NCBI GenBank assembly: GCA_947453715.1
Contig: CANGHX010000009.1
Coordinates: forward strand, 1 to 34,213
From: Flavobacteriales bacterium
Lineage (GTDB): Bacteria; Bacteroidota; Bacteroidia; Flavobacteriales_D; Crocinitomicaceae
Direction of reading: 5' to 3'
DNA length: 34,213 nt
In this document: in pieces, positions 29,000 through 34,213 of the stretch
How positions within the stretch are numbered: position 1 is the first letter of the stretch
How the letters are laid out: each line of letters begins with the position of its first letter
The notes under the pieces: model-generated
What the model was told of the DNA's origin: nothing
Database searches by the model: none
The model's input: only the letters and a program-made list of their open reading frames with translations
Position numbers and translations under genes: made by a program

Positions 29000-29778
29000 A
29001 ATCTAATAATGAAATGTTCTTTTTCTTGTTGTTTACGAGGAATTATAATTCCCATTCGAAATAAATCCATTGTCAAATTATAATCTTTTGACTGAATAAT
29101 TTTATTCCAAGCTGCAAGCATTGAATCACTCCAGCGTATGTCATCTAAAATGAAAATGGTGTCGTTGTGTGAATTTTGTTTAAGTAGTTCTAAATAAATC
29201 AGTAAAGCCTCACCATCATGGTGACCGTCTATGAATATTAGGTCATATTTTTGATTCGTATTTGCTTTTAAATATTCTATAAAAGTGGAATTTACACAGG
29301 TAACATTTACACATTCTCTAATATTTAAGTTTTGAACTGCAACTTTATAAATTTCAGAACAACCATCTAAAGTGATAATTTGAGAATCGCTATTTGCTTT
29401 TGAAAAATGAAAACTACCAACTCCAAGTGAAGTACCTAATTCTAAAATGCTTTTTGGTTTATAGAACTTCGTTATTTTATACAAAAGAGTACCATATTTA
29501 CCTCTTGAAGTGTTTGTTTTGAAAATCGATTTTAAACTTCTAATATTTCCTAAACGTTTTGATCCCACTCCAAAATCTGTTATTTCAATAGTTTTTTTGT
29601 CTTTTTTTAAAGAATTGAATAGTTTTTTTCTTTCTAAAACAAAATTATTGTCCATATTTGTTTTTAGACATTCACTGACAAATTGATAAACAAAAGGTGA
29701 ATGCGTACCGTGACGTCCTTTTGCTTTTAAAAAATAGGATATGTATTCAGAAAGTATGTTCACAGTACAAATAAACAA
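28996..29778 (-). CDS. Class I SAM-dependent methyltransferase (O-methyltransferase-like)
   Basis: SILELGTSLGVGSFHFSKA, IITLDGCSE, YDLIFIDGHHDGEALLIYLELL. Confidence 0.8.
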   Translation of the reverse strand: MFICTVNILSEYISYFLKAKGRHGTHSPFVYQFVSECLKTNMDNNFVLERKKLFNSLKKDKKTIEITDFGVGSKRLGNIRSLKSIFKTNTSRGKYGTLLYKITKFYKPKSILELGTSLGVGSFHFSKANSDSQIITLDGCSEIYKVAVQNLNIRECVNVTCVNSTFIEYLKANTNQKYDLIFIDGHHDGEALLIYLELLKQNSHNDTIFILDDIRWSDSMLAAWNKIIQSKDYNLTMDLFRMGIIIPRKQQEKEHFIIRF

Positions 29779-29795
29779 AACTTTAGAATATTATC

Positions 29796-31190
29796 ATGAC
29801 AATTGTACCAAATTCAAAAATTGAGGAACAAAAAAATAAGGTTATTGGAAATCATCCAGAAGTAAAATTAGAAGCTCCATGTAAGATAAACGATGGTATT
29901 TTGTCGTTTTCTAAGAATGAGACTCTTGATAAAATAAAATTATTTGAAAATACAGATTTTACTTCTTGTTTTTTTATTCCTGCTTCAGGATCGGGTTCAA
30001 GAATGTTTCAATTCTTATTTGATTTTTTAGAAGAGCCAAATGAAGAGAATAGAGGACAAGTCGAACGTTTTTTAAATCATATTTCTGATTTTGCATTTTT
30101 TCAACAATTACCTATTTCAATTCGTAAAAAATTAAAAAATCACGATGTTGAATTAGATGAATTTGTTTCTTATTTATTGAATGGACACGGCATGGGGTAT
30201 GGTGATTTACCAAAAGGTTTAATTCCTTTCCATAAAAATGACCCGTTTATTTTGACTCCTTTTCAAGAACATGTTTTACAAGGTGCAAAAGTAATAGATG
30301 AAAATGTAAAATTTCACTTTACTGTTCAATCAAAATTTAAAGAGAAAATTGAACAAGTTATTCAAAACATTCAAGGTTTGACAGGTCAAGTATATAATAT
30401 CGAATTTTCTGAACAAGATCAAGCATCTAATGCTATTGCTTTCAAATTAGACGGTGAAGTTTGTATCAATGAAAAAAATGAAATATTAGAGCGTCCTGCT
30501 GGCCATGGAGCTTTATTAACTAATCTTAATGAAATTGATTCAGATTTAATTTTCATTAAAAACATTGATAATGTTCAACATATTTCAAAATCAAAAGAAA
30601 CAAGTGATACTTGGAAGTTTTTAGGAGGAATATTATTAGAATTTAAAAGAGAAGCAGGTAAAGTTTTTGAAAATCCGTCTTTAGAAGGGATCATTACATT
30701 GAACAAAAAATATCAAATCTATAATGAAGAATTGTTGAACAGATTGTCAATGAATGAATTGTTAGATCTATTAAATAGACCGGTTAGAGTTTGTGGAATG
30801 GTTCGAAACGAAGGTCAACCTGGAGGTGGTCCATTCTGGATTAATGATAATGGAGTCATTTCAAAACAAATCGTTGAGAAGTCTCAAATCACAATGCGTG
30901 GTGAACAATATAGATTAATGGTTCAAAGTAACTTCTTTAATCCTGTAATGATAGTTGCTTCTGGTAAAGATTTAAAAAACAACAAATTGGATTTAGAAAA
31001 TTACAAGGATGATTCCAAGTTTTTTCTGGTTAAAAAGAAATATAAAGGACAAGATATTCGATTTATTGAATTACCAGGATTATGGAATGGAAGTATGGCG
31101 CATTGGAATAGCTTATTCGTTGAAATCCCTTCAGATACATTTAGCCCTGTAAAAACAGTTTTAGATCTTTTAGATACAGCGCATATATAA
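29796..31190 (+). CDS. DUF4301 family protein
   Basis: FIPASGSGSRMFQFLFDFL (nucleotidyltransferase-like Gly loop), HGMGYGDLPKGLIPFHK, CGMVRNEGQPGGGPFWI typical of DUF4301. Confidence 0.85.
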   Translation: MTIVPNSKIEEQKNKVIGNHPEVKLEAPCKINDGILSFSKNETLDKIKLFENTDFTSCFFIPASGSGSRMFQFLFDFLEEPNEENRGQVERFLNHISDFAFFQQLPISIRKKLKNHDVELDEFVSYLLNGHGMGYGDLPKGLIPFHKNDPFILTPFQEHVLQGAKVIDENVKFHFTVQSKFKEKIEQVIQNIQGLTGQVYNIEFSEQDQASNAIAFKLDGEVCINEKNEILERPAGHGALLTNLNEIDSDLIFIKNIDNVQHISKSKETSDTWKFLGGILLEFKREAGKVFENPSLEGIITLNKKYQIYNEELLNRLSMNELLDLLNRPVRVCGMVRNEGQPGGGPFWINDNGVISKQIVEKSQITMRGEQYRLMVQSNFFNPVMIVASGKDLKNNKLDLENYKDDSKFFLVKKKYKGQDIRFIELPGLWNGSMAHWNSLFVEIPSDTFSPVKTVLDLLDTAHI

Positions 31191-31198
31191 GTTTGATA

Positions 31199-32158
31199 AT
31201 GAATTGGAAATTAAAATCATTTTTGAGTTTTAGTATATTCGTTTCTATATTATTATCTTCTTTTAGAAATAATGAAACGAAAACTGTTTCAAATCCGGTT
31301 TTTTATAAAACGGAGAATGTCATTGTTTTAGTTATTGATGGTCCACGTTTTTCCGAAACATTTGGTGATTCAACAAGAAAATACATTCCTCATTTGGCAA
31401 ATGATTTAGCACCAAAAGGTGTCTTATTAACAAATTTCAAAAATAATGGAACAACTACAACTGTTTCAGGACATGCTGCAATTACTTCAGGAGTTTATCA
31501 AAATTTAAAAAATAATGGTTTAGACTTCCCGAAAAACCCATCTTTTTTCCAGTATTATTTGAAAGAGAAACAACTTCCAAAAGATAAAGCTTGGATCATT
31601 TCGAGCAAAGGGAAATTAAATATCCTTTCAAACGCAAAAAAGAAAGAATGGAAAGATGTTTATTCTCCGATGTCATATTGTGGAATCAAAGGGTCTGGAA
31701 ATGGTTATGTTGGGGATGTAGAAACTTGGGGGGATGTTAAACGCATTATTTCAGACTACAAGCCTAATTTATTACTAATAAATCTTTTAAGTGTTGATGT
31801 TGCTGGTCATAATAACAATTGGGAAGGATATTTAGAAGCTTTGAAAAACACAGATAACTATGCGTTTGAATTGTGGAATCTTTTACAAAAAGATGAAAAA
31901 TACAAAGATAAAACAACATTGATTATCACAAATGATCATGGTCGACATTTAGATGGGCACAAAAATGGATTTGTTAGTCATGGTGATAAATGTGAAGGTT
32001 GTAAACATATCTATTGTATTGGATTAGGACCAGATTTCCAGGTTAATAATGTTTCAAATGAACCTTACGAATTGATAGATATCAGCCAAACAATCGCGAC
32101 TTTGCTTCAATTTCAGATGCCGACTTCAAAGGGAAAATTAATTAAGGATTTCTTTTAA
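31199..32158 (+). CDS. Alkaline phosphatase superfamily / type I phosphodiesterase-like secreted protein
   Basis: VIVLVIDGPRFSETFGDSTRKYIPHLANDLAPKGVLLTNF, TTTTVSGHAAITSG, LIITNDHGRHLDGHKNGFVSHGD. Confidence 0.8.
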   Translation: MNWKLKSFLSFSIFVSILLSSFRNNETKTVSNPVFYKTENVIVLVIDGPRFSETFGDSTRKYIPHLANDLAPKGVLLTNFKNNGTTTTVSGHAAITSGVYQNLKNNGLDFPKNPSFFQYYLKEKQLPKDKAWIISSKGKLNILSNAKKKEWKDVYSPMSYCGIKGSGNGYVGDVETWGDVKRIISDYKPNLLLINLLSVDVAGHNNNWEGYLEALKNTDNYAFELWNLLQKDEKYKDKTTLIITNDHGRHLDGHKNGFVSHGDKCEGCKHIYCIGLGPDFQVNNVSNEPYELIDISQTIATLLQFQMPTSKGKLIKDFF

Positions 32159-32159
32159 T

Positions 32160-32624
32160 TTATTTCTTTTCAATTCTTAAGCCTATTTCCATTGCTGAAG
32201 GTAAGCTTTTACTTGGGAATAATGATTCTATTTTATAGGTGTAGAGACCATCTTCTTTATATTTAATATTATCATTGATAAGATGTTCACTGTCCCAAAT
32301 TTCAAGTGCTGGTTCACCTTGGTATTCTCCATTATCATTAATAATCTTCAAATTTACTATTGTTGATTTTTCTTCATTTGAAGGTGATATTTCAGTTACT
32401 TTAACTTTAAATGATTTGTATTGAAATCCTTCAGTGAATCTAAATAGTAGAGTTGATTTGTAGGTCGCCTTTGAATCTTTTAAATCAAATTTAAAAGTCT
32501 TAATATCCTTGGTTAACCATTCCAAACCTGGTGACAACTGTTGATTTTCTTCAAAAACTACTTTTTTGGATTGACAACTGTATAAAACAGTTAAAAGAAT
32601 TGAAAGTGTAATAATTTTTTTCAT
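32160..32624 (-). CDS. Putative lipoprotein, unknown function
   Basis: MKKIITLSILLTVLYSCQSKK lipobox; 154 aa. Confidence 0.7.
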   Translation of the reverse strand: MKKIITLSILLTVLYSCQSKKVVFEENQQLSPGLEWLTKDIKTFKFDLKDSKATYKSTLLFRFTEGFQYKSFKVKVTEISPSNEEKSTIVNLKIINDNGEYQGEPALEIWDSEHLINDNIKYKEDGLYTYKIESLFPSKSLPSAMEIGLRIEKK

Positions 32625-32671
32625 GATACTTTTTATTATTTAAATCCAGTTATTTCTAAAAGTAACAAAAA

Positions 32672-32696
32672 AAGGTTGCCAAAAATTGACAACCTT
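32672..32696 (-). terminator. Rho-independent terminator of the 32717-33127 gene
   Basis: aaggttg ... caacctt stem with T-run on the minus strand, just 3' of the CDS. Confidence 0.75.
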
Positions 32697-32716
32697 CATA
32701 ATGTTTTATAATTATT

Positions 32717-33127
32717 TTAATGATTGGATGAAACTGGTTCTTCTAAAAATTCACCACATCCTATAAAGAATTGTGCATTTTCTGTAATCATGTAAGCTTT
32801 TCCTCTATTTAATCCTTCACCTAAATCGTGAAAACAAGGACAGCTTTCAGCACTTTCAGGATCAAAAAACTCCATAACCAACACGGCTGTTTTTCCATTT
32901 TCACCTTTCAATACCCATGATTCTGCAATATCTTTCGATGATCCTTCTGGACCAGGTTTGCTAACCAATGTATATGCGAATGAATTTTCCCCAACGTATA
33001 AAACTAAATTTTTCCCACCGTCATAATCCAAGGTCCAAGCAGGTTCTTGACCACTAGCTATAACTGATTGTGTTCTTCCTATTGAGGAAAAACCAATGAA
33101 TGCTGCAAAAAGAATAATTGATTTCAT
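32717..33127 (-). CDS. Small secreted protein (COG3650-like)
   Basis: Signal peptide; ASGQEPAWTLDYDGGKNLVLYVGENSFAY ... ESCPCFHDLG. Confidence 0.65.
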   Translation of the reverse strand: MKSIILFAAFIGFSSIGRTQSVIASGQEPAWTLDYDGGKNLVLYVGENSFAYTLVSKPGPEGSSKDIAESWVLKGENGKTAVLVMEFFDPESAESCPCFHDLGEGLNRGKAYMITENAQFFIGCGEFLEEPVSSNH

Positions 33128-33391
33128 GACCTTTGTTGTTTGTTGAGTTAATTTACGTATTTGAAATTGATATGTTTCATAATAAACGTGAAAATTATCA
33201 AAATCTTATTTTTGAGTCTTTAATTGGCTATTTGAATTAACATTCAAATGACGTAGAGATAATTTTGAATGATCAATCGAAAAATTAACCTAGTTAAATT
33301 GTATCATTATTGAGCTTTTATTGTGAATAATTCATTGATAAATAAATATAGGAATTAAATTGAATTCAATTGATTGAATTAACTTCGTAAT

Positions 33392-34213
33392 ATGAGAAAA
33401 TTAAGTACTTTTCATTATATTATTGTTGCTTTTTTATTGATTTCAACTTCGTTTGCATTGATTTCAAGCAAATCGAATTCGAAACAAAATAAAACTAAAA
33501 ATAAGCAACTAGATTCTTCAGAAACTTGGGCGAAAGAAAAATTAGCTTCTTTGTCGCTAGAAGAAAAAATAGGTCAATTCTTTATGGTTTCTGCCTATTC
33601 CAATCAAGGCGAACAACATTTAAAAGAAGTTGAAGGTCAAGTAGTCAATAATAAAGTTGGTGGAATTATCTTTTTTCAAGGTGAAAGAGATAATTTAGTT
33701 TCTTCAATCAATCGTTTTCAGCTTAAAAGTTCTGTTCCCTTGTTAATTGGATTAGATGCAGAGTGGGGAATACAGATGCGAATTTTTGGGGAACAACGTT
33801 TTCCATATGCATACACGATTGGCGCAGCTGATGATTTAGAATTAACAGAGCGAATTGGAGCAATGATGGCTCAAGAATGCAGAGAAGTTGGAATTCATAT
33901 GAATTTTTCACCCGTTGCTGATGTTAATAGTAATCCTGAAAATCCTGTGATTGGTTTCCGTTCATTTGGTGAGAATGCTCAAAAAGTTTCGGATCATGTT
34001 GTTGCAATGGTTAAAGGAATGGAAAAAAATGGTGTCCTAACAAGTATAAAACATTTTCAAGGACATGGATATACAGATAAAGATTCACATTTATAATTAA
34101 CAACAGTATCCTCAAGTTTAAAATCAATTAAAACAACTGATTTTAAACCATTTGAATCAGGAATTAAAGCTGGGTCAGGATCAGTTATGATTGGTCATTT
34201 AAATATTCCTGCC
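33392..34213 (+). pseudogene. Glycoside hydrolase family 3 (NagZ-like beta-N-acetylglucosaminidase), interrupted by an in-frame TAA at 34094-34096 and truncated by window edge
   Basis: GIIFFQGERDNLVSSINRFQ, LLIGLDAEWG, NFSPVADVNSNPENPVIGFRSFGE, KHFQGHGYTDKDSHL then TAA. The same frame continues LTTVSSSLKSIKTTDFKPFESGIKAGSGSVMIGHLNIPA for 39 codons with no further stop. Confidence 0.8.

Follow-up and report, generated by a model that had tools for sequence, protein, structure and literature searches.

An in-frame stop codon in a GH3 NagZ-type gene of a Fluviicola-like metagenome assembly is probably a contig-end artefact

Introduction

The NagZ of Bacillus subtilis (YbbD type; PDB 3BMX, 4GYJ, 3LK6) is a described enzyme to which the gene considered here can be compared directly. 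An intact relative of this gene aligns with YbbD over residues 47-418 (E=7e-58), and the likeness includes both the KHFPGHGxTDxDSHxxLP motif and the aspartate of ...SDALNMK. We take the DSH motif to provide the Asp-His general acid/base of GH3 NagZ enzymes, and the SDALNMK aspartate (residue 306 in relative G010) is presumably the nucleophile. Unlike YbbD, the intact gene has an additional C-terminal beta-lactamase/PBP4B-like domain. The same gene is found among the GH3 and beta-lactamase fusions of Flavobacteriales, and most of 39 relatives carry it as an intact homologue with a frame of about 970-1030 aa. The underlying fusion is thus an ordinary, conserved gene, with full-length forms across the order.

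A second point of comparison is technical. Breaks between contigs in short-read metagenomes show the same kind of dovetail overlap, with mismatches at the contig end, that is described below. According to passages of PMC7945042 and PMC11443906, the latter in an account of diversity and de Bruijn graphs, strain variation and sequencing errors are among the reasons why metagenome assemblies become fragmented or complex.

The stretch of DNA analysed here, referred to as the window, comprises 34,213 bases of contig C9 (C9:1-34213), and base 34213 is the physical end of that contig. The genome is metagenome-assembled (310 contigs, 3.3 Mb, 92.7% complete, 2.9% contamination), and its source is a Fluviicola-like bacterium. 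A preliminary description of the window had pointed to a stop codon inside the conserved motif of a NagZ-like gene near this contig end and had left three explanations standing: a nonsense mutation in a recent pseudogene, an error near the contig end, and recoding or readthrough.

Results

A stop codon interrupts the active-site motif of a NagZ-type frame

The features discussed below are as follows; C171 (7,411 bases) belongs to the same assembly as C9.

33392-34096, plus strand: truncated reading frame of 234 aa plus TAA, with an ATG start; N-terminal part of a GH3 NagZ-type protein (Pfam Glyco_hydro_3, PF00933)
34094-34096, plus strand: in-frame TAA; C171 and the nearest relatives have the sense codon GAA (Glu) at the same place
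33998-34213, plus strand: dovetail overlap of 216 bases with the start of C171 (C171:1-216), 206 of 216 bases identical (95.4%), no gaps
33998-34058, plus strand: first 61 bases of the overlap, the same in C9 and C171 in the contig alignment; C171 begins exactly here
34059-34213, plus strand: unreliable contig tail of 155 bases, with 10 differences from C171, delimited by comparison with C171 and relatives

The 234-residue product matches PF00933 (E=1.4e-40, profile positions 2-181 of 316). Its start is likely a signal peptide or membrane anchor segment, and its end reads ...SIKHFQGHGYTDKDSHL, followed by TAA. This stop sits inside the KHFxGHGxTxxDSHxxLP motif of the frame, and past it the same frame reads LTTVSSSLKSIKTTDFKPFESGIKAGSGSVMIGHLNIPA, up to base 34213. 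Both flanks of the TAA align without gaps to homologues, indicating that the in-frame stop is real as written and is not the chance end of an open reading frame. The preliminary description was therefore right that the homologous frame continues beyond the stop, and its reading of the motif as that of GH3 NagZ agrees with the form seen in the homologues. Since the alignments to C171 and to G010 are gap-free and the same frame extends to 34213, a frameshift was rejected, as had also been claimed.

In the window copy, the KH(F)PGHGxTxxDSHxxLP motif with its Asp-His pair is broken, and four departures from the family (Q, Y, stop and T) fall within a span of 42 bases. Compared with YbbD, the window version stops after 234 residues and is missing the rest of the barrel downstream, along with the equivalent of Asp306. 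The segment VISDALNMKGV, present in C171 and G010 and aligned with YbbD, is absent from the 234-aa product, which would thus end before the presumed nucleophile.

A second contig of the assembly carries the intact continuation

When the truncated protein was searched against its own genome, it also matched bases 1-96 of C171, in a frame that stays open for 775 residues. Over the motif region the C171 translation is KHFPGHGNTDKDSHLELP, with Glu in place of the stop, and the motif is intact, including the Asp-His pair. The C171 frame reads KHFPGHGNTDKDSHLELPIV and then runs through the remaining GH3 portion (PF00933, E=2.2e-48). A beta-lactamase domain follows (PF00144, E=9.2e-37), and the frame closes at a normal stop. 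Following the reading frame beyond the contig, a check that had been proposed at the outset, thus led through both domains, and the beta-lactamase-like domain that had been guessed is present. The two parts, scored separately against NCBIfam PRK05337 (beta-N-acetylhexosaminidase), reach 86.8 and 104.9 bits, against a cut-off of 207 bits. We read the intact gene as one of about 980 codons, whose probably secreted product joins a GH3 NagZ-type beta-N-acetylglucosaminidase to a serine beta-lactamase/PBP-like domain.

Within the overlap, C9 and C171 differ at 34059, 34070, 34094, 34100, 34102, 34104, 34108, 34111, 34123 and 34205. A third copy of the overlap sequence was looked for in the same assembly and was not found.

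Synteny places both contigs at a single locus

Relative G010, with 97% DNA identity, crosses the C9/C171 junction on one contig (L052, 11,560 bases). Window positions 29619-34213 match L052 1-4595 at 95.7% identity and C171 1-7182 matches L052 4380-11560 at 96.3%; the two matches overlap on L052 by 216 bases. A single intact gene of 980 aa spans the junction, the genes upstream of it matching C9 and those downstream matching C171. A second relative, G009 (L053), has the same arrangement at about 87-88% identity. This synteny indicates that C9 and C171 are chromosomal neighbours and that the gene is single.

That the assembly holds two versions of the sequence could also be explained by two paralogues, with the broken one on C9 and its intact counterpart on C171. 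We consider this very improbable, given that the two contigs overlap exactly end to start and that the C9 upstream genes and C171 downstream genes are contiguous around one gene in both relatives. Moreover, the only other GH3 match in the genome lies on C12, where a 405-aa frame with 28% identity represents a distant paralogue. With an intact version in the same assembly and synteny that implies one locus, the suggestion of a recent pseudogene is not supported for the source genome.

The intact version, not the window version, fits the family

We compared both versions with relatives from the order. The motif is intact in all 26 distinct homologous motifs. The residues that have become Q and T in the window are each P in 26 of 26, and the position of the window Y is occupied by D (20) or N (6). 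Where the window has its stop, these motifs have E, T, A, D, S, G and similar residues, and a stop was found at this position in 0 of 26. At the nucleotide level, the genus-level relatives that align in register (L010, L011, L012, L015, L017, L018 and L024) all share one base at each of 34059, 34094 and 34100, and it is C171, not the window, that has this base. At 34070 the window has T, whereas these relatives have A or G.

A natural truncation in the family was rejected. Homologues that end at DSHL would have removed the anomaly, as the preliminary description had recognised; no homologue does so and none has a stop there. Among the Flavobacteriales fusions in the relatives searched, the contig-end copy of the window is the only one with a stop at the motif. 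Stops had been flagged in the homologues of G039 (L029) and G025 (L037), and these were considered as parallels. They were rejected because neither lies at the motif; from well before it to several hundred codons past it, neither gene contains a stop.

These comparisons also bear on recoding or programmed readthrough at the TAA, which would account for a homologous frame that runs on past the stop with no frameshift. A recoded codon should be conserved as a stop at the same place, yet none of the 26 motifs has one, and C171, although it comes from the assembly that also contains the stop, shows a sense codon. Readthrough would also leave the neighbouring substitutions at conserved residues unexplained, and a general reassignment of TAA is untenable, as TAA is the terminator in 27 of 29 checked window genes. 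We regard recoding as excluded for practical purposes.

The contig tail holds both error-like changes and bases that relatives share

Differences from G010 are unevenly distributed along the window gene, with 14 in the first 667 bases (4 transversions) and 11 in the last 155 (8 transversions). Not all of the tail looks erroneous: bases 34102, 34104 and 34123 are common to the window and G010, and 34108 is common to the window and G009, in each case unlike C171. Part of the tail may therefore be genuine strain variation.

This mixture of error-like changes and relatives' bases raises the question of whether the stop is a genuine nonsense allele, a recent pseudogene in a minority strain, whose haplotype was joined to the C9 end, the intact majority allele having been assembled as C171. 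Some of the differences resemble natural polymorphism and others are synonymous, as would be expected of a real haplotype, and the entire tail, including the stop, could be real. However, the damage is confined to the last 155 bases, preceded by 222 stop-free codons with a good GH3 profile match. Four motif-breaking changes in 42 bases are dense for a young pseudogene, and in none of the relatives is the gene broken here. On balance, we consider such an allele unlikely. It is likewise doubtful that a co-occurring Fluviicola-like strain carries a nonsense NagZ-type allele, in which case loss of a probable peptidoglycan-recycling enzyme would be segregating in the population.

Discussion

The intact copy in C171, and the intact gene carried by every relative examined, point to an ordinary assembly artefact, in which an erroneous or minority-strain branch was joined to the end of C9. 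We put the probability of this explanation at roughly 0.8. Thus, among the possibilities raised initially, an error at the contig end is favoured by the C171 overlap, with its sense codon and a gene that continues to its normal end, and recoding is discarded.

The artefact could have arisen as follows. The chromosome would contain the gene once, intact and about 980 codons long, and the assembly graph would fork at 34059 between two versions of the sequence. C9 would then have followed a low-quality or minority-haplotype branch for 155 bases before ending, while the main version would have entered C171, whose first base lies 61 bases ahead of the fork and which holds the remainder of the gene intact. 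The overlap, the differences, the intact second copy, the synteny and the conservation were all observed, and the C9 branch would derive from few reads that were error-bearing or came from a minority strain. In principle, C171 and most of C9 could represent different strains.

These results suggest a caution for similar cases. When an apparent nonsense mutation lies within about 150 bases of the end of a metagenome contig, the other contigs of the assembly should be compared first, and this comparison should precede any proposal of pseudogenisation or recoding.

Several minor observations were made along the way. In two relatives from the order (G037:C3:1267949-1270311 and G034:C6:4979-7322), the match splits into adjacent GH3 and beta-lactamase frames, and the fusion in these genomes may exist as two neighbouring genes or be broken. 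Four further MAG records (L040, L041, L042 and L043) carry the gene, with a protein 72-96% identical to the Fluviicola-like query. Their titles name Candidatus Kuenenia stuttgartiensis, Actinomyces viscosus and Chryseobacterium gleum, and these organism names look wrong. Finally, at the other end of the window, bases 1-149 dovetail with bases 1-149 of C252 from the same assembly, on the opposite strand and with 100% identity. Both window ends look like breaks in the assembly graph, the one at 1-149 being free of mismatches.
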